Of a stretch of 64,000 bases of DNA, positions 31,181-38,882 are shown in pieces (positions within the stretch are counted from its first letter, which is position 1; every line of letters begins with the position of its first letter). Under the pieces are notes generated by a model. It worked only from the letters and a program-made list of their open reading frames with translations. It was not told the DNA's origin and made no database searches. The stretch is from an uncultured Bacteroides sp. (lineage in GTDB: Bacteria; Bacteroidota; Bacteroidia; Bacteroidales; Bacteroidaceae): positions 3,501,258 through 3,565,257 of the forward strand of contig NZ_OY782578.1 of NCBI RefSeq assembly GCF_963677945.1. The letters run 5' to 3'. The position numbers were made by a program, and so were the translations under genes.

Positions 31181-32299
31181 CTAAAAATAATTAGATAGTG
31201 CCGGAATGGCAAAAATTGGATGTTTATCTTTTTTCTCTTCAAGTTCCTCAAGTAGTACTCTTTCACAACTATTCACCCAATAAACAAAAGAACGGTTGGG
31301 AGTATAATTCTTTGAGAATTCAATAAGTTCGTCCAGATCGAAAGAGTCGGAAGTAATACCTGCACCAGCGCGTACGGCATCATAAGCATTGCAATCCTGC
31401 TCTATATGTACGGGAACCATCATTACCGGTTTACCTATGTACATTGCTTCACAAATAGATTCGAACCCTGCGGTACTTGCATATGCCTTGCAACCACTCA
31501 TATATTTCAGAAAGTCGACATCGTTTAATGTATGAAAAGAAAGAGTCTCTGTTACTTTCATCTCATCCGGCGCATCGGGCTTATCCCAGAAAAAATGTAG
31601 CTGTAATTCCAGGTGATTGGAGTTAAACTCAGTAATATAATCCGCATAACCGGAATTTACCATATATCCGTGAATATAATTCCCTTGCTCAGGCTGAAGA
31701 GAGAAAACTTCACTGCGCAACAATGGAGGTACAACTGTTACATTTTCTCTTTTATCATCGCACATTCTGTAAAATGAGAGAGCCAATCTCTTTGAACTTC
31801 CTATGCTCGTAAGACGGGTAAAGAAGCGTAACAGGAAAAGATTCAAGGTGTTTTTCCGGGGGAATTCGAAATCACGGTGCAGAAAAAGATACTGGTGACC
31901 AATACACACATAAGGAATCCGGGGACGTAGAAAAGTGTAGGTAAGTCCCGTAAGTAGTTCGTAGAAGTTTATAACCACGTCGGCGCCGGATTCTTCTATG
32001 CGTTGTTTTATATAAATCATACTTTTAATATATGCAGGCGTCTGAAGCAAGTTATAGACTACACTTCTTCCAATATCTGCTCTTTTATTTTGTGCAGAAG
32101 GTAGGAAATTAGGACTCAAGAATCGCTTAACCGGCGCTTTTATACTTCTGTTAAAGAATCCCGGAAGTGAGCGTGAAGTGCTTTTTCCAACTAAGACTTC
32201 CACCACTTCATGCCCGTTTTTAAGCAACATTTCTTCTAATGTAATTGCCTGGGTAAAGTGACCTCTCCCCTCTCCTTGAACAATAAATAAGAATTTCAT
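31181..32299 (-). CDS. glycosyltransferase, MJ1255/GT28-like GT-B fold
   Basis: 372 residues. The N terminus KFLFIVQGEGRGHFTQAITL has the Gly-rich loop and His typical of GT-B enzymes that work on lipid or nucleotide sugars. The middle is VVINFYELLTGLTYTFLRPRIPYVCIGHQYLF, and the C-terminal donor site is FLKYMSGCKAYASTAGFESICEAMYIGKPVMMVPVHIEQDCNAY (split by many Gly/Glu positions). Its start overlaps the phosphoesterase stop by four bases. Together with that LpxH-like enzyme it probably modifies a glycolipid or envelope glycan; the exact acceptor cannot be read. Confidence 0.83.
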   Translation of the reverse strand: MKFLFIVQGEGRGHFTQAITLEEMLLKNGHEVVEVLVGKSTSRSLPGFFNRSIKAPVKRFLSPNFLPSAQNKRADIGRSVVYNLLQTPAYIKSMIYIKQRIEESGADVVINFYELLTGLTYTFLRPRIPYVCIGHQYLFLHRDFEFPRKNTLNLFLLRFFTRLTSIGSSKRLALSFYRMCDDKRENVTVVPPLLRSEVFSLQPEQGNYIHGYMVNSGYADYITEFNSNHLELQLHFFWDKPDAPDEMKVTETLSFHTLNDVDFLKYMSGCKAYASTAGFESICEAMYIGKPVMMVPVHIEQDCNAYDAVRAGAGITSDSFDLDELIEFSKNYTPNRSFVYWVNSCERVLLEELEEKKDKHPIFAIPALSNYF

Positions 32300-33096
32300 G
32301 AGGCTATGTATATTTCTTCTGTTATATCATTCAAATTTTCTTGTATCAACGCTCCTTCATAGTAGCGTACACTCCAGTTTCCTTTTTCATCCTCAACCAA
32401 AGCAGACAATGTTTCCACCCAGTCTCCGGAATTAAGGTAGTGTATCTCTTCATAATAGGTATTTTCCGGGTGATGAATGTGCCCGCAAATAATGCCATTG
32501 CATCGTTTTATCCGGGCAAGATCAACCAGTTCTTTTTCAAAATCGGAGATATAAGATACTGCAGATTTTACTCTTTGCTTAATTGTTTGTGAAAGTGAGT
32601 AATATGGTTTCCCTTGCTTTACTCTACGGGCATTATAGATTTTATTCAACCAAAGAAGCATTGAATAACCAATATCTCCCAGCTTAGCCAGCCATTTCAT
32701 CTGAGTAGTTACTGAATCGAAAACATCGCCGTGAGTAACATAATACCGATTGCCGTGACTTTCATAAATATAATCTTTTACTATACTAATATTATAGAGT
32801 GTCAGTGGGGCCAGATTATCTAGAAAATCATCGTGATTTCCTCTTACATAAATAACTTCCGTACCAAAGTTCTCCATCATTTTCATGATTACTTTAAAGA
32901 ACTCGGTATGCTTAGGTTTCCATTTATTCAGCCCGCCTTTTTGTAAATGCCAACCGTCAATAATGTCTCCGTTAAGAATCAGTTTATCACAATTAATTGA
33001 TTTTAGGAATTTAGTTACTTCCTCTGTTTTAGAGTGAGGAGTTCCCAAGTGAATGTCCGATAGGACTACTGTGGGGTAATAGTTTCGTAATTGCAT
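32296..33096 (-). CDS. LpxH-like UDP-2,3-diacylglucosamine diphosphatase family phosphoesterase (copy 1)
   Basis: 266-residue calcineurin-like metallophosphoesterase with the metal motifs in order: VVLSDIHLG (D-x-H), LNGDIIDGW (GDxxD), VRGNHDDFL (GNHD), VTHGDVFD, and CGHIHHPEN (GHxH). The family includes LpxH, the lipid A pyrophosphatase, but Bacteroidota carry several similar proteins. It is the first gene of a phosphoesterase-glycosyltransferase-HicB-like operon. A near-identical paralogue starts at 34041. Whether either makes lipid A or another glycolipid is open. Confidence 0.85.
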   Translation of the reverse strand: MQLRNYYPTVVLSDIHLGTPHSKTEEVTKFLKSINCDKLILNGDIIDGWHLQKGGLNKWKPKHTEFFKVIMKMMENFGTEVIYVRGNHDDFLDNLAPLTLYNISIVKDYIYESHGNRYYVTHGDVFDSVTTQMKWLAKLGDIGYSMLLWLNKIYNARRVKQGKPYYSLSQTIKQRVKSAVSYISDFEKELVDLARIKRCNGIICGHIHHPENTYYEEIHYLNSGDWVETLSALVEDEKGNWSVRYYEGALIQENLNDITEEIYIAS

Positions 33097-33202
33097 AAGT
33101 TTTTATTTTTTGCTCTACAAATATCATCTTATTACATTACAAAAGAGTGAACACAATATTACTATTCTATTAAGTTTAAGCGGCTAAATTCTCCAAAAGA
33201 AA

Positions 33203-33240
33203 TGAACGCAGGCAACTGATTATTCAATTACCTGCGTTCA
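33203..33240 (-). terminator. hairpin terminator after phosphoesterase copy 2
   Basis: TGAACGCAGG at 33203-33212 pairs perfectly with 33231-33240. On the minus strand it is followed by TTTCTTTT, ending the copy 2 transcript before copy 1 begins. Confidence 0.75.
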
Positions 33241-33282
33241 AATATAATTCTGCTATTTTCAGATTCAACTATTCCGGCTCAA

Positions 33283-34041
33283 TTATACTCCTGAGTCTTC
33301 ATAATAATGGTGTACTCTCCAGTTTCCGTGCTCATCTTCAACCAAGGCAGACAAAGATTCCACCCAATCGCCGGAGTTCAGATAATGAATATCTTCGTAA
33401 TATCTGTTTTCGGGATGATGGATGTGCCCACAAATAACACCATCACATTGCTTAACCCGGGCCAGAGATACCAGTTTATTTTCAAAATCAGACATAAAAG
33501 AAACAGCTTTCTTAAATTTCTGCTTTATTACTTTTGAAAAAGAATGATAAGGTTTGCCATGCTTTATTCTGCGGGCATTGTATTTTTCGTTTAGCCAAAG
33601 AAGTGCTGAATACCCCAGATCGCCAAGCTTTGCCAACCATTTCATACGGGAAGTTACAGAGTCGAATACATCTCCGTGAGTAACATAGTAACGTTTCCCA
33701 TGACTTTCGTAAACGTAATCCTTTACTATCTTGATATTATCGAGTGTCTTCGAAACAAAATTATCCAGAAAATCATCATGGTTTCCTCGGACATATATTA
33801 CTTCAGTACTAAAGCTATCCATCATTTTCATGACGTCTTTAAAGAACTGAATATGTTTTAGTTTTAATTTACTGAGTCCCTCTTTACTGAAGTGCCATCC
33901 ATCAATAATGTCTCCGTTAAGAATTAGTTTATCGCATTTAATGGATTTCAGGAATTTACTCACCTCCTCTTTCTTTGAATGAGGCGTTCCTAAATGAATG
34001 TCAGAGAGAACCACAGTGGGGTAATAAGTACGTAATTGCAT
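33283..34041 (-). CDS. LpxH-like metallophosphoesterase (copy 2)
   Basis: 252 residues, very similar to copy 1 along its entire length, with the same motifs: VVLSDIHLG, LNGDIIDGW, VRGNHDDFL, VTHGDVFD and CGHIHHPEN. I start at 34041 (MQLRTYYPTVVLS) because it aligns with MQLRNYYPTVVLS of copy 1; the longer frame to 34074 adds 11 unrelated residues. The C terminus lacks the last dozen or so residues of copy 1. A terminator separates the two, so the duplicates can be regulated independently. Confidence 0.86.
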   Translation of the reverse strand: MQLRTYYPTVVLSDIHLGTPHSKKEEVSKFLKSIKCDKLILNGDIIDGWHFSKEGLSKLKLKHIQFFKDVMKMMDSFSTEVIYVRGNHDDFLDNFVSKTLDNIKIVKDYVYESHGKRYYVTHGDVFDSVTSRMKWLAKLGDLGYSALLWLNEKYNARRIKHGKPYHSFSKVIKQKFKKAVSFMSDFENKLVSLARVKQCDGVICGHIHHPENRYYEDIHYLNSGDWVESLSALVEDEHGNWRVHHYYEDSGV

Positions 34042-34131
34042 AAGTTTCTGTTTAGCACTGCAAAGGTAATGCAATTACGTATAATATTGAATATCAGAAT
34101 ATTATTCTTATATAACTTTCTATTTTTTTAA

Positions 34132-35055
34132 TTACATCCAGCGTTTTTTCTTAAAGACCCAAAGGAATCCGGCACATACAACAACCGAGAATCCTACTAC
34201 AAAAGCAAATCCCCAGTTAGAGTTTTCAATACCATTTTTAATATTCATACCAAACATACTTGATATAAGCGTTGGGAACATTAATATAATAGAGATAGAT
34301 GTCAATATGCGCATGATGCTATTCACATTATTGCTGATAATTGAAGAGTAAGCATCCATCATTCCGCTAAGTATATTACTGTATATATTCGCCGATTCGT
34401 GAGCCTGTTTCAGTTCAATTTCAACATCTTCAATTAGTTCCACATCAAGCTCATCAACTGGTAATTTGAATTTCAGTTTGGCTAGTAATATTTCATTTCC
34501 TTTAAGAGAGGTTATAAAATAGGTAAGACAGTTCTCCAGATGGAAAAGAGCCAGCAATTCCTTATTTTCAATGGAACGTTCCAGTTCTCGTTTTACAACA
34601 TCAATCCGTTGATTTATAATTTTAAGTGATTTTAGATACCACACTGATGAAGAGAGGAATAGTTTAAAAATAAGATCTACCGAATCTGTAAAACCAAGGT
34701 TCTTACGTTCATAATACGTCAAGAAATCCTTAAGCATTACAGTTTGGTAATGGCATATGGAAATGCAGATATTATCTTTAAATATTATACCTAATGGAAC
34801 TGTTATAAAAGGCATTTTTGAATCTTCCTGCCGATGGGGAATTCGTAAGATAATAAACGTCCATTCGTCTTCTGTTTCTACACGCGGACGTTCATCAATA
34901 TCGGCAATATCCGAAAGGAAATACTCCGGAACGTTAAGTGTTTTTTGTAAGTAATTATAGTCCTCGGTATCGGGACAATCAATTTTAATCCAACAATTTG
35001 GCTCCCACTTAGAAATAGTCTCTAGTCCAAAGGCTCCCCTTAGAAAAGTTTTCAT
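34132..35055 (-). CDS. corA: CorA-type magnesium transporter
   Basis: 307 residues. The large cytoplasmic N-terminal domain is followed by two C-terminal transmembrane helices joined by the selectivity-filter motif GMN (ISSMFGMNIKNGIENSNWGF, near residue 275), and ends in the basic FKKKRWM. This is the pentameric CorA Mg2+/Co2+ channel. It diverges from the MgtE_N-NRAMP operon across 365 bases, which places two Mg2+ systems side by side. A GGAGGG sequence six bases before the start is unusually Shine-Dalgarno-like for this organism. Confidence 0.92.
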   Translation of the reverse strand: MKTFLRGAFGLETISKWEPNCWIKIDCPDTEDYNYLQKTLNVPEYFLSDIADIDERPRVETEDEWTFIILRIPHRQEDSKMPFITVPLGIIFKDNICISICHYQTVMLKDFLTYYERKNLGFTDSVDLIFKLFLSSSVWYLKSLKIINQRIDVVKRELERSIENKELLALFHLENCLTYFITSLKGNEILLAKLKFKLPVDELDVELIEDVEIELKQAHESANIYSNILSGMMDAYSSIISNNVNSIMRILTSISIILMFPTLISSMFGMNIKNGIENSNWGFAFVVGFSVVVCAGFLWVFKKKRWM

Positions 35056-35253
35056 GCTTTACCCTCCATTCATTATGAACAAAGGGATTCAGTCACGAAA
35101 TGCCTCTGTTCAGATTTTAGTCCTTACTATGATAATCGTCCATTTTGAAATTAAAATGATTACAGCAACAAAAATAGATAAAAATAAAGAATATCGGGCT
35201 TTAAAAAAGAAAAAATAAAAATTTAAATTCTTTCAATATTCTAATATTTAGCC

Positions 35254-35283
35254 TTGCTTTTTAAATTAAAAGAATTACTTTTG
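35254..35283 (+). promoter_or_regulatory. promoter of the MgtE_N-NRAMP operon
   Basis: TTG at 35254-35256, a 19-bp spacer and TACTTTTG at 35276-35283 match the Bacteroides -33/-7 pattern. Transcription is expected near 35290. The first start codon met is that of the 14-codon leader ORF at 35310, and the main gene starts only at 35421, leaving about 130 bases of leader RNA. Confidence 0.75.
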
Positions 35284-35309: not shown

Positions 35310-35354
35310 ATGGACGAAGGCCCTGCGGATATATTTAGTTTATTATTAACCTGA
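35310..35354 (+). CDS. 14-residue candidate Mg2+-sensing leader peptide
   Basis: ATG at 35310 opens MDEGPADIFSLLLT and a TGA stop, about 20 bases after the predicted transcription start and 66 before the MgtE_N gene. The acidic and Pro-containing opening (Asp-Glu-Gly-Pro-Ala-Asp) is of the kind that destabilises translating ribosomes at low Mg2+. In the enterobacterial mgtL leader, [17 protein letters not shown], this controls an Mg2+ transporter. Codons 6-7 form the left arm of a hairpin, so a ribosome here would change the RNA fold. The homology is functional analogy only; no experiment is known to me. Confidence 0.55.
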   Translation: MDEGPADIFSLLLT

Positions 35355-35420
35355 TGTAGTTAGGTTAGCATCCGCTTGTGCATGCTTCTTAATCTACATC
35401 ATAAAAAGAAAAAGAAGCAT
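35325..35420 (+). promoter_or_regulatory. structured mRNA leader with complementary loops and start-codon hairpin
   Basis: GCGGAT (35325-35330) pairs with ATCCGC (35370-35375). Inside it TAACCT (35347-35352) pairs with AGGTTA (35362-35367), leaving loop GATGTAGTT. Downstream, ATGCTTCTT (35382-35390) pairs with AAGAAGCAT (35412-35420), which ends at the base before the main ATG. The second loop contains CTACATC (35394-35400), perfectly complementary to GATGTAG (35353-35359) of the first, allowing a kissing-loop or pseudoknot. I found no match to the M-box or the yybP-ykoY manganese riboswitch. Confidence 0.55.
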
Positions 35421-36686
35421 ATGAACTCTTTTATGACGTTCTATCTGAGCCGTGTAATCGGAAGAAAGATCTTTGATGTAAACGGACAGTATATTGGTAT
35501 CGTAAAGGATCTGCTGGTTAATGCAGACAATACGAATCAGACTGAAAGACCCCTTGTTACAGGTATTAAAATAAAAAGTCCAGACAAAACCGGATTTTAC
35601 TCTTTTGAGCATTTTAAAGTTCAGAAAATCAATGGTAAACTCAAGGTCAGCTGTTCTCAACTTATTCAATTATCACAGGAAAATATTGATAACGACCTCT
35701 ATCTGGCCAGCGTAGTTCTCGACAAACAGATTGTTGATTTGAACGGAAGAAAGCTGGTTCGGGTAAACGACATCCGTCTTGTTTCAGTAGCCAATGGCAC
35801 TTTTGCCGTTGCGGTTGATATAGGCATCGAAGGTCTGTTAAGAAGAATCGGGATTGCCAAACCGCTTAAGATTTTCCTTTCTTACTTTAAAGTGAATATC
35901 CCTGCCAAATTTATTTTATGGGAAGATGTTGAAGCTATCGACTTTTCAAATCTGAATATCAAGCTATCGAAAATTCACTCCAAGCTACAAACGCTTCACC
36001 CATCGGACTTAGCCGATATTATTGAGGATTTAGGCAAGAAAGCCAGTGCCGATGTATTCTTATCACTGGATGAAGAAAGGGCTGCCGACGTACTTGAAGA
36101 GATGGAAGCCGATGCTCAGGTGCATATCATTGAAAGTCTTTCTATTGAAAAGGCAGCCGACGTGCTCGACAAGATGCCGGCCGATGAAGTTGCCGATATC
36201 CTTAATGCTCTTGAGGAAGAAAAAGCCGAACTTCTTCTTAATGAAATGGAGAAGAAAACCTCCGAAGAGGTGCGTGAATTGCTTGATTATCCGGAAGATT
36301 CTGTGGGTAGTCTTATGGCAACCGAAATTATTTCTTTCAGTAAGGAAAAGACGGTTAATGATGTACTCAACGAATTGAGAGAGAAAAAGCCGGAAGCTGC
36401 CACATTATATAATTTGTTTGTAACTGACGAAAAAGAAGAATTGATTGCAACCGTGTCGTTAAGAGACATAGTCGTTTCCTCGCCCGAGGCCACAATCAAC
36501 GAAATAATGAAGCCTTCGCCTGTTTGTCTGCGAGATGATCAGGATGTTGACGAGATTGCGGAAATTGTATCAAAGTACAATATGCTAGCAATACCTGTTG
36601 TGGATAATGCCAACGTACTACAAGGTATGGTTGTTATTGACGACGTAATTGAAGACTTAATTAACAAACGCAGAACTAACAAATAA
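35421..36686 (+). CDS. MgtE N-terminal/CBS-domain protein without a channel domain
   Basis: 421 residues, all soluble. The N-terminal 170 residues look like two PRC-barrel-type units (YLSRVIGRKIFDVNGQYIG; VLDKQIVDLNGRKLVRVNDI). Next come MgtE_N helical repeats (about 200-290: LHPSDLADIIEDLG, DEERAADVLEEM, KAADVLDKMPADEVADIL). A CBS pair follows (VGSLMATEIISF; INEIMKPSPVCLRDDQDVDEIAEI). In MgtE these parts sense Mg2+ and gate the channel, but here the transmembrane part is missing and an NRAMP-type transporter follows 18 bases later. ATG 35421 is chosen; in-frame ATG 35382 would add a Lys-rich stretch. Confidence 0.88.
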   Translation: MNSFMTFYLSRVIGRKIFDVNGQYIGIVKDLLVNADNTNQTERPLVTGIKIKSPDKTGFYSFEHFKVQKINGKLKVSCSQLIQLSQENIDNDLYLASVVLDKQIVDLNGRKLVRVNDIRLVSVANGTFAVAVDIGIEGLLRRIGIAKPLKIFLSYFKVNIPAKFILWEDVEAIDFSNLNIKLSKIHSKLQTLHPSDLADIIEDLGKKASADVFLSLDEERAADVLEEMEADAQVHIIESLSIEKAADVLDKMPADEVADILNALEEEKAELLLNEMEKKTSEEVRELLDYPEDSVGSLMATEIISFSKEKTVNDVLNELREKKPEAATLYNLFVTDEKEELIATVSLRDIVVSSPEATINEIMKPSPVCLRDDQDVDEIAEIVSKYNMLAIPVVDNANVLQGMVVIDDVIEDLINKRRTNK

Positions 36687-36704: not shown

Positions 36705-37949
36705 ATGTTTAAAAATAAAAAGAATATGTTTAGCCAGATTGCAATGTTTCTGGCTATCCTCGGACCAGGTATTATTACAGGAAGTGTAGATAACGACGCA
36801 GGTGGCATTACCACCTATTCTGTAGCCGGTGCTGTTTATGGGTATAATCTTCTCTGGACTCTTATACCATCATTCATTGTATTGATTGTTATTCAGGAAA
36901 TGAACGCCCGCATGGGTATTGTTACCGGTAAAGGATTGGCCGATCTGATCCGCGAAAACGCCGGTGTAAAGGTTACTTTCTTTATTTTCATCGGTCTTCT
37001 TGTTGCTGATATTGGTAATACAACAACTGAGTTTGCCGGTGTAGCAGGAAGTATGGAAGTATTTGGTGTGAGCAAATATATATCTGTACCCATAGTGGGT
37101 ATAATGGTGTGGGTACTTGTTGTAAAAGGCACGTACCAGATTGCAGAAAGGATATTCCTAATATTCAGTCTTTCGTTATTGATGTACGTGGTTGCAGCCA
37201 TCATGGGTAAACCGCAGTGGGGAGAAATAGGACATGCAATGGTTCATCCCGATTTAAAGGTCAATTCTCAGAGCCTGGCTATGGTTATCGGTATTATCGG
37301 TACCACAATTGCTCCGTGGATGCAGTTCTACATGCAGTCGTCTGTTATTGAAAAAGGGCTGACCATGAAGAATTACAAATATTCTCTCATTGATATTGTT
37401 GTAGGATGTATTGCTACAGTAGTTGTTGCTTTCTTTATTATCGTGGCCTGTGCCTCTACCTTGCATACAAACGGAATACAGATTAACGAAGCTAAAGACG
37501 CGGCACTAGCATTAAAGCCTCTTGCCGGAGAATTGTCTTCTCAATTATTTGCATTTGGTTTATTTGTAGCATCTATCTTCTCGGCTACTATTCTTCCACT
37601 GGCAACTGCATTCTATGTGTGCGAGGCCTTCGGTTTTGAAGCTGGTATAGATAAGAAATGGGATGAAGCCAAAGAATTTTATATACTTTATACAGGTATT
37701 TTAATTTTCTCAGTTCTTATCATCCTGATTCCTAATGCACCGCTTATCGCCATTTCATTGTGGTCACAGGTTATCAATGGAATGCTTCTTCCGGTTGTGC
37801 TTATCTGTATGATTCTGCTTGTAAACAACAAGAAGATAATGGGTAAATACGTAAACAAGCCTCTTAATAATATTATCGGATGGGGTACAATAACCATCCT
37901 GATTGTTCTGTCTGTAGTGCTACTTGTGTTACCGTTATTCAGCAAATAA
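36705..37949 (+). CDS. NRAMP-family transporter, Mg2+-type signature
   Basis: 414 residues with about eleven transmembrane helices. The first helix has GPGIITGSVDNDAGGITTYS where classical NRAMP has the DPGN site. The sixth has TTIAPWMQFYMQSS where classical NRAMP has MPHN, so the metal-binding Met is Ala. Loss of that Met is the hallmark of NRAMP-related magnesium transporters, which handle hard ions such as Mg2+ and Mn2+. Co-transcription with the MgtE_N/CBS protein and the neighbouring corA agree. The substrate remains inferred. Confidence 0.87.
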   Translation: MFKNKKNMFSQIAMFLAILGPGIITGSVDNDAGGITTYSVAGAVYGYNLLWTLIPSFIVLIVIQEMNARMGIVTGKGLADLIRENAGVKVTFFIFIGLLVADIGNTTTEFAGVAGSMEVFGVSKYISVPIVGIMVWVLVVKGTYQIAERIFLIFSLSLLMYVVAAIMGKPQWGEIGHAMVHPDLKVNSQSLAMVIGIIGTTIAPWMQFYMQSSVIEKGLTMKNYKYSLIDIVVGCIATVVVAFFIIVACASTLHTNGIQINEAKDAALALKPLAGELSSQLFAFGLFVASIFSATILPLATAFYVCEAFGFEAGIDKKWDEAKEFYILYTGILIFSVLIILIPNAPLIAISLWSQVINGMLLPVVLICMILLVNNKKIMGKYVNKPLNNIIGWGTITILIVLSVVLLVLPLFSK

Positions 37950-38111: not shown

Positions 38112-38408
38112 ATGGAAAAATTCAACGATGTAATAAAAAGCAATAATCCGGTATTAGTTGATTTCTTTGCTGAATGGTGTGGACCATGCAAAACAATGAA
38201 ACCCATTCTGGAAGATTTAAAAAAGCAAATTGGTGATTCTGCCAGAATCATCAAAATAGATGTGGATCAAAATGAAGATCTCGCTGCAAAATACCGCATT
38301 CAGTCAATCCCTACCTATATGATATTCAAAAACGGCGAACCATTGTGGAGGCAATCGGGAGTTATGCAGGCTGAAGATCTAAAAGAAATAATAGAAAAAT
38401 ATAAATAA
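38112..38408 (+). CDS. cytoplasmic thioredoxin
   Basis: 98 residues with the thioredoxin active site (FFAEWCGPCKTMKPIL, Cys about 29 and 32), cis-Pro loop IQSIPTYMIF, and the conserved C-terminal helix. No signal peptide. It precedes an exported thioredoxin by six bases, so one transcript supplies a cytoplasmic and an envelope form. The separate upstream gap of 160 bases holds no recognised promoter. Confidence 0.93.
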   Translation: MEKFNDVIKSNNPVLVDFFAEWCGPCKTMKPILEDLKKQIGDSARIIKIDVDQNEDLAAKYRIQSIPTYMIFKNGEPLWRQSGVMQAEDLKEIIEKYK

Positions 38409-38414
38409 GATTAC

Positions 38415-38882
38415 ATGAAAAAGATACTAATAATTGGGACTATAGTTGTTATTGCTATAGTTACTTATTCGTTTGCCATTCCTCAAGGTGAGAAGAAAGA
38501 CAAACCGGAAAAAGGAGTCGTTATTCAGATGAACAACGACTTATACCTGAAAAACGTAGCCGATTACAATAATACAAAAGAGTGGAAATTTAAAGGAGAT
38601 AAACCGGTAGTTATTGATTTCTATGCAGACTGGTGTGGTCCTTGCAGAATGGTAGCTCCGTTGATGAAAGAATTGGCAAAAGAATACGAAGACCAGATTG
38701 TAATTTACAAGGTAAACGTTGATAATGAAAGTGAATTAGCAACCGCTCTTGGTATCAAAAATCTGCCTACCATATTGTTTATTCCCCAAAAAGGTGATCC
38801 TCAATTAATTGTAGGATCGGCAGACAAGTCTACCTTTAAAAGAGCTATTGATCAGGTTCTTCTTGGAAAACCAGCAAAATAA
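38415..38882 (+). CDS. exported thioredoxin-domain protein
   Basis: 155 residues: hydrophobic N-terminal helix (ILIIGTIVVIAIVTYSFA), a charged linker, then a thioredoxin fold with YADWCGPCRMVAPLM and cis-Pro loop IKNLPTILFI. The enzyme should act in the periplasm on disulphides or as a partner for the preceding cytoplasmic thioredoxin. The helix may be a membrane anchor instead of a cleaved signal; no lipobox is seen. Confidence 0.9.
   Translation: MKKILIIGTIVVIAIVTYSFAIPQGEKKDKPEKGVVIQMNNDLYLKNVADYNNTKEWKFKGDKPVVIDFYADWCGPCRMVAPLMKELAKEYEDQIVIYKVNVDNESELATALGIKNLPTILFIPQKGDPQLIVGSADKSTFKRAIDQVLLGKPAK

Follow-up and report, generated by a model that had tools for sequence, protein, structure and literature searches.

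Within a stretch of 64,000 nucleotides (nt) from an uncultured Bacteroides sp. (NZ_OY782578.1 of GCF_963677945.1, forward positions 3,501,258-3,565,257; hereafter the window), an operon for an MgtE_N protein and an NRAMP-related transporter of the NRMT kind, and a divergent gene for a CorA-family Mg2+ transporter, are each preceded by a short open reading frame (ORF) with an acidic start. Comparison with homologous loci shows that short ORFs opening M-D-[D/E] are conserved before Mg2+ importers and are accompanied by three RNA strands, X, Y and Z, of which Y is predicted to pair alternatively with X or with Z. We regard this cassette as probably a cis-acting translational attenuator, in which the translating ribosome would act as the Mg2+ gauge, and which would serve NRMT operons, CorA, one clade of MgtE and at least one MgtA. 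An initial annotation of the window had proposed a Mg2+-sensing leader peptide for the NRMT operon, describing a promoter, a 14-codon ORF, a 66-base gap before the main ATG (35421) and a GCGGAT/ATCCGC hairpin, all of which proved on re-reading the sequence to be exact to the base. It had overlooked the second leader, before the divergent CorA, as well as the main RNA switch.

The leader of the NRMT operon and its conservation

The elements of the NRMT operon are listed below, N and M being the two arms of the hairpin described in the initial annotation.

35276-35283, plus strand: -7 box TACTTTTG of the NRMT operon (sequence; TTG at 35254-35256, 19 bases between)
35310-35354, plus strand: leader ORF MDEGPADIFSLLLT, 14 codons and TGA (sequence, homologue conservation)
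35325-35330, plus strand: N strand GCGGAT, codons 6-7, left arm of the earlier hairpin (weak swap-test support)
35352-35364, plus strand: X strand TGATGTAGTTAGG, overlapping and following the leader stop, 5' arm of the predicted anti-sequestor hairpin (fold, covariation)
35370-35375, plus strand: M strand ATCCGC, right arm of the earlier hairpin (swap test)
35380-35401, plus strand: Y strand, in which 35388-35401 (inner 35380-35386) is predicted to pair with X and 35382-35390 with Z
35412-35420, plus strand: Z strand AAGAAGCAT, ribosome-binding region immediately 5' of the start codon, predicted to be masked by Y
35421-36686, plus strand: PRC-barrel, MgtE_N and CBS protein, the NRMT partner (Pfam)
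36705-37949, plus strand: NRAMP-related transporter of the NRMT kind (Pfam Nramp, PDB match, site motifs)

The -7 box is of the TAnnTTTG type, which we take to be the Bacteroidota promoter motif, and this motif occurs 15-60 nt 5' of the leader ATG in 51 of 65 NRMT homologues (4.2 expected). The best PDB match of the NRAMP-related protein is 7qia, which is EleNRMT (E value 4.9e-114; runner-up 3.1e-26), and the alignment to it places DAGG and TTIA at two site positions, which fit the NRMT motifs DxxG and TxxA/T. These motifs are assigned to helix 1 and helix 6, respectively, in the account of PMC8806188. To judge from this site motif, the downstream NRAMP is a member of the NRMT clade, and the operon is likely a Mg2+ importer operon; one characterised NrmT with an MgtE-like partner is described as carrying Mn2+, not Mg2+ (PMC4072509).

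The window contains six short ORFs (20 codons or fewer) that begin with ATGGAYGAN, where dinucleotide shuffles average 3.0. By count alone the leader is no better than chance, and conservation therefore had to decide; it is conservation across homologues that lifts the leader above chance. Short ORFs lie some 110-126 nt upstream of orthologues of the MgtE_N protein in four further genomes (51-86% identity) and encode the leaders MDEGPADIFKFILLT, MDDGPARYQLLIKSQI, MDDLPANIQSLTSLHRRII and MDEGPAGLSPNITKLD. The larger set of homologues of the NRMT partner comprised the best 79 loci from a scan of named genomes (more exist) together with loci L003-L007, 84 in all, from which five with less than 150 nt upstream (L047, L052, L063, L084, L109) were removed; among the 79 loci then counted are L003, the copy of the window itself, and one duplicated leader (L102 = L005). 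Among the matches listed, the closest relative is Bacteroides luti (98%; L036). A short ORF reading M-D-[D/E/G]-x-P, with its start 93-126 nt upstream, is present in 69 of the 79 loci counted and, once the start of L086 is placed, in 70/79. Variant leaders are found in three more, MEEGSS in L087 and L092 and MDPYPA in L108, while in L081 the leader codons GAT GAC GAC CCT GCG are preceded by ATA and not ATG. Homologous operons lacking any leader ORF, the observation by which the initial annotation proposed that it be judged, are confined to the remaining five loci (L045, L093, L095, L096, L103). On that criterion the outcome largely favours the initial annotation. The leader-peptide gene is real, and its acidic start upstream of a likely Mg2+ importer operon is conserved as had been supposed. 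All of the 79 loci but L007, L057, L081 and L098 yielded an NRAMP homologue (75 loci). Two of the leaderless partners, L045 and L093, sit in bins labelled Verrucomicrobia and Deltaproteobacteria, by transfer or mis-binning. Farther afield, an NRMT operon in another class of the phylum carries the leader MDDDPGGLTNLNNHE (L239), and three remoter relatives have none (L240, L241 and L242, the last with M-D-D only at the apparent end of an upstream gene).

The NRMT leaders are 9-21 residues long, and strong conservation is confined to the first six codons. Alignments employed a 65-sequence set (without L005, L100, L102 and L107), reduced to 63 for codon counts (also without L040 and L050). Base entropies at the three codon positions were 0/0.20/1.44 bits for codon 3 and 0.45/1.15/1.86 bits for codon 4, a pattern that is the mark of coding, with the first two bases of codons 2, 3 and 5 biased since these codons belonged to the selection. 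Likewise, Asp2 followed by an acidic codon 3 occurs in 100 of 102 leaders mostly by selection, from which the 70/79 figure for M-D-[DEG]-x-P in the NRMT loci is free. Codon choice is also restricted: Asp2 is GAC in 94 of 102 leaders (eight genes of the window use GAC for 37 of 153 Asp), and Ala6 of the NRMT leaders is GCG in 54 of 55. This bias suggests some constraint at the RNA or decoding level past the peptide itself.

Leaders before CorA, MgtE and MgtA

A sequence model built from 65 leaders, including that of the window, was searched in 395 genomes of the class and matched 31 of them at an E value of 0.01 or less, of which ten were inspected (21 others and a second match in G229 went unread). 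All eight matches below 1e-4 lie upstream of Mg importers: six NRMT operons (one being the window's), one full MgtE with the leader MDDVPDSCCRKRSN and one CorA with the leader MDDYPADGNQRVKP. The two next-best matches fall within ordinary genes. Because the model reached CorA and MgtE, the window's own divergent CorA was examined, and the following elements were found.

35169-35176, minus strand: -7 box TATTTTTG of the divergent CorA gene (sequence)
35117-35143, minus strand: second leader ORF, MDDYHSKD, 88 nt upstream of CorA (sequence, CorA-locus comparison)
35103-35111, minus strand: X strand GAACAGAGG of the CorA leader (9 bp with Y)
35077-35086, minus strand: Y strand CCCTTTGTTC of the CorA leader, common to both predicted helices (pairing)
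35062-35071, minus strand: Z strand GAATGGAGGG of the CorA leader, holding the CorA ribosome-binding site (10 bp with Y)
34132-35055, minus strand: CorA-family Mg2+ transporter (Pfam CorA, E value 3.9e-49)

A -7 box of the TAnnTTTG type precedes 21 of 25 CorA leaders (1.2 expected; this set excludes L204, whose CorA has the leader MDEVPLCRLFF..). In the order, a CorA homologue was found in 35 of 159 genomes, five of them without a locus, and an M-D-[D/E] leader stands 60-135 nt upstream in 21 of the 30 loci read; three others have plausible variants (L200, L214 with MDGVPDNLENNPA, and L216) and six have no leader. In the genus of the window, the homologue was found in 45 of 80 genomes (15 without a locus); of the 30 loci read, 21 have a leader, in most cases of the type MDDSNPRTCNSIN, and nine have none. 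Across the class, the leader was seen in 6 of 17. No leader lies upstream of CorA in L246, L247 or L261. Two CorA loci of the window's genus, L246 and L250, keep strands like X, Y and Z without an M-D-[D/E] leader and are in effect natural leaderless variants. Two other families of the class supply CorA loci (L182, L183, L184, L186 and L188) in which the CorA ATG has ATGGACG, ATGAACG or ATGGAAG 7 nt before it. The out-of-frame, overlapping ORF opened there begins M-[D/N/E]-D-D; possibly this is a different, overlapping kind of acidic leader, or a chance feature shared by descent.

For MgtE, a close homologue was present in 10 of 40 genomes of one family, and all ten have a leader (MDEGPYNS.., MDDVPS..). 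MgtE proteins of other clades were rejected as targets, with a leader in 0 of 30 loci in the class and before 0 of 31 housekeeping MgtE genes in the gene census; similarly, MgtE loci from a sample of relatives gave no M-D-[D/E] in the 23 shown of 25, the lone filter match being MKEETDK (L026). MgtA was found in 8 of 198 genomes, one of which has a leader, MDDGPFSRKNAVTTTHQ.

A gene-blind search with the pattern MD[D/E]GPY, derived from known leaders, yielded ten matches in 198 genomes of the order. Eight are leaders of CorA (four) or MgtE (four), one lies within a long gene and one is without context. Three of the eight are in genomes already seen (G569, G497, G520), so that five of the seven other matches represent new leaders. 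The reversed control pattern gave nine raw matches in the same genomes, and since this is about as many, the genomic context and not the number is informative. A broader pattern, ATGGAYGANNNNCCNGCN, was dropped as too unspecific, as it matches 154 of 295 genomes.

A census was then taken of 922 genes of at least 150 codons, from the window and all loci, assigned to classes by BLASTP comparison with five reference proteins. An M-D-[D/E] short ORF begins 60-135 nt upstream of 129 of the 241 genes classed as a Mg importer or partner versus 1 of the 681 others, the importer rates being inflated because loci were partly fetched via their leaders, and the rate for others being that of their neighbours. 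By class, the leader precedes 68/89 NRMT partners, 46/75 CorA, 14/37 MgtE, 1/9 MgtA-like and 0/31 housekeeping MgtE genes, while any ATG short ORF occurs in the same interval before 427 of the 681 other genes. By these comparisons, the leader is found in four importer families: NRMT, CorA, one MgtE clade and at least one MgtA. Regarding the Asp, Glu and Pro residues emphasised in the initial annotation, the acidic ones are indeed the common feature, but Pro is not universal and was rejected as a required residue: codon 5 is Pro in just 8 of 25 CorA leaders, and nine of the 25 contain no Pro at all (MDDYHSKD, MDDYYLCC).

Two further observations concern neighbouring genes. On the minus strand, positions 32296-34074 of the window hold two adjoining, near-alike ORFs that appear by eye to be metallophosphoesterase-like (VVLSDIHLGTPHS, GNHDD), apparently a tandem duplication. 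Two thioredoxin-fold genes lie 3' of the NRMT operon (38112-38882), one with an N terminus that by eye is signal-like.

Alternative pairing of the X, Y and Z strands

Each leader is associated with three strands, X around or just past its stop, Y midway and Z at the ribosome-binding site. When a plain RNAalifold consensus was computed across the full leader, hardly any structure emerged (-2.0 kcal/mol), and a swap test was used instead, in which native pairing energies are compared with those of swapped strand combinations (2000 permutations). In the NRMT set (65 sequences), native energies were -19.1 kcal/mol for X:Y and -16.3 kcal/mol for Y:Z, versus -13.9 and -12.7 kcal/mol for swapped strands (0/2000 permutations for each). 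The corresponding CorA values (25 sequences) were -15.7 versus -9.3 kcal/mol and -13.8 versus -8.6 kcal/mol (0/2000 for both), and those for MgtE (14 sequences) were -17.2 versus -15.7 kcal/mol (14/2000) and -15.9 versus -13.5 kcal/mol (0/2000). No excess over swaps was obtained for X:Z or N:Y in the NRMT, CorA and MgtE sets, nor for N:Z in the NRMT set. The NRMT X:Y core shows strong covariation: two-sided changes occur at eight of nine pairs and amount to 55 such cells, versus 14.0 when shuffled and 14-21 when slid. For NRMT Y:Z, the 19 two-sided cells exceed the 7.6 of shuffles but not the 10-21 of slid alignments, and pair and type counts are unremarkable; 79.1% of its cells pair, versus 38-58% when slid.

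The initial annotation had proposed that a ribosome at the leader would unfold the GCGGAT/ATCCGC hairpin, so that premature drop-off would alter the fold. Both arms are present and their pairing has weak support (N:M native -7.0 versus swapped -6.2 kcal/mol, 0/2000, in the NRMT set), but the part of key structure falls to the better-backed switch between X:Y and Y:Z, and the hairpin could at best correspond to stem 1:2 of mgtQ. M:Y and X:M also exceed swaps in the NRMT set, M overlapping both X and Y.

In the window, the piece of NRMT transcript that ends before the ribosome-binding site is predicted to fold best as the X:Y hairpin (-20.0 kcal/mol). Its 8-bp core is clear of the Y:Z arm, while the extended hairpin overlaps that arm. 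In the MgtE leaders, X and Z are nearly identical words (CTCTGTAAGG, TGTAAGGAG), so that Y can pair with just one at a time. X:Y and Y:Z are predicted to be mutually exclusive: in CorA and MgtE the two helices draw on the same bases, and in the NRMT leader of the window it is the extended X:Y hairpin that conflicts with Y:Z. A strict pseudoknot was ruled out where Y is shared (the window's CorA, MgtE); for the NRMT core helices one may form. In folding models of the NRMT leader, a ribosome at codon 5 favours X:Y, leaving the site open, a ribosome at the stop favours Y:Z, hiding it, and without a ribosome the model leans to Y:Z. A first measure of the openness of the ribosome-binding site was too blunt (0.31 at codon 5, 0.21 at the stop, 0.22 for the X-shuffled control) and was replaced by pair counts.

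No Rfam family, the M-box included, reached the gathering score in the 64-kb window, and on 15 homologous loci only tRNA did so. At E values up to 5, the window gave just two weak small-RNA matches, far under the cut-offs. A known riboswitch was rejected on this basis.

Proposed mechanism and comparison with known systems

Under ample Mg2+, the leader would be translated to its stop and the ribosome would cover X; with X covered, Y would pair with Z and the importer start would be hidden. Under low Mg2+, the acidic N terminus would make the ribosome unstable over the first few codons, by what is termed intrinsic ribosome destabilization. Early drop-off or lingering would then leave X free to form X:Y during RNA synthesis, which would keep Y from Z and permit translation of the importer. 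According to PMC9718836, D/E-rich N termini cause early ribosome loss in E. coli and in eukaryotic systems, and high Mg2+ counters this. In this scheme, early loss or delay of the ribosome would open the importer and full translation would close it, a sign that suits a Mg2+ importer provided that low Mg2+ is what triggers the early loss.

It is unlikely that the leader senses something else, through arrest or slow decoding (Pro and EF-P, tRNA charging, another ion) and not low-Mg2+ drop-off. Such a reading would draw on the presence of Pro at codon 5 in ten of ten MgtE leaders not chosen by Pro, on the description of one NrmT as able to carry Mn2+ (PMC4072509), and on the Ile/Leu-rich tails of many NRMT leaders, the window's having three consecutive Leu TTA codons. 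However, the 8/25 and 9/25 counts for CorA leaders given above tell against Pro, runs of three equal residues (Asp aside) occur in only 6 of 104 leaders, the common residues are acidic, and the genes that follow the leaders belong to four families of Mg importers. To our knowledge, neither CorA nor MgtE is a Mn importer. That the short ORF is an ordinary, unregulated one aiding re-initiation or coupling is very improbable; short ORFs are certainly common, as the 427/681 figure illustrates, but the M-D-[D/E] start hardly occurs outside Mg importers (129/241 versus 1/681), and the covarying, competing helices would remain unexplained.

Two other readings were weighed. One, for which we see only a slender chance, is that the RNA itself binds Mg2+ as a riboswitch, perhaps as an X:Y/Y:Z pseudoknot, with the ORF secondary. 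Some nucleotides are conserved past the need of the peptide (GAC at codon 2 in 94/102, GCG at codon 6), the core X:Y helix of NRMT lies inside the Y:Z loop in pseudoknot-like fashion, and L246 and L250 retain the strands without a leader. On the other hand, the start is conserved as a peptide while the third bases of codons 3-5 vary, it turns up before four unrelated genes whose RNAs are otherwise unlike one another, Y is common to both helices in the window's CorA leader and in the MgtE leaders, which leaves no pseudoknot there, and the Rfam results at the gathering score were as stated for the window and the 15 loci. The other, which we consider improbable, is transcription attenuation, Rho-dependent or intrinsic, in which leader translation would set termination and not site masking. 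It has precedent in mgtL and corL, which are reported to act via Rho (PMC11552253), and in the CorA leader of L211, seven T follow the Y:Z hairpin right before the start codon, resembling an intrinsic terminator; this one leader may act on transcription.

Taken together with the translational attenuator, we lean, with modest confidence, towards a widespread Bacteroidota Mg2+ regulon with the ribosome as sensor, in which one portable cassette would stand before four unrelated importer families, independent of mgtL, corL and mgtQ. Bacteroidota are major members of the gut flora, and control of their Mg2+ uptake is undescribed in the open-access literature searched. If true, Mg2+ sensing by nascent-chain-driven ribosome drop-off would span two distant phyla and be no enterobacterial peculiarity. 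Four non-homologous importers with the same cassette would supply many natural replicates for finding out which N-terminal residues make ribosomes unstable beyond E. coli, and the cassette could flag Mg2+ carriers among metal transporters of uncertain substrate. Leader-bearing CorA genes are frequent in the genus of the window (21 of 30 loci read), which should make experiments in laboratory strains feasible.

The initial annotation knew of no such leader in Bacteroidota, and likewise none was found described in the open-access literature, supplementary tables being outside the scope. The transcriptome map of B. thetaiotaomicron (PMC7366714) reports leader-like short ORFs in long 5' untranslated regions, neither corA nor uORF being matched in its main text. 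In 50 genomes surveyed for RNA motifs, an mgtE motif is reported only from Thioalkalivibrio (PMC11109978). An amino-acid attenuator of the trp kind was rejected: residue runs (Asp aside) are found in 6/104 leaders, including LLL of the window, a T run before the start in 1/104, and the downstream genes are transporters. The M-box Mg2+ riboswitch is described as preceding NrmT operons mostly in Clostridia and Deltaproteobacteria (PMC4072509). The operon class there is the same, an MgtE-like partner with an Nramp-related transporter, and Mg2+ control is likewise exerted by the leader RNA, but the Bacteroidota loci have no M-box or other Rfam family at the gathering score and carry a leader-peptide cassette instead.

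As reported in PMC11552253, mgtL and corL are also leader ORFs before Mg2+ importers, CorA included, whose translation is inverse to importer expression, and mgtL contains acidic and Pro residues. The enterobacterial leaders employ Rho-dependent termination, however, whereas the Bacteroidota anatomy points to control of translation; moreover, CorL is said there to be poorer in acidic and Pro residues, while Bacteroidota CorA leaders open M-D-[D/E]. The closest likeness is to mgtQ of the Salmonella mgtCBRU operon, which is argued in PMC8092293 to act on mgtB translation via Asp2 and Glu5, not Pro. In leaders of the mgtQ type, the acidic residues reduce translation of the leader, and bL31 counteracts this. 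Going by that account, both are very short ORFs before a Mg2+ transporter with acidic first codons (Asp2, Pro4 and Glu5 in mgtQ), both have alternative stems (2:3 versus 3:4 in mgtQ) that free or mask the ribosome-binding site of the transporter, early ribosome loss is thought to switch the gene on, and the untranslated leader is off, matching the NRMT folding model. They differ in that mgtQ lies between mgtC and mgtB and serves mgtB, whereas the Bacteroidota leader occupies the 5' end of its predicted transcript, and in that the Bacteroidota cassette belongs to another phylum and stands before four unrelated importer families. By analogy, and with no claim of common descent, we hold that the Bacteroidota leader would work like mgtQ.
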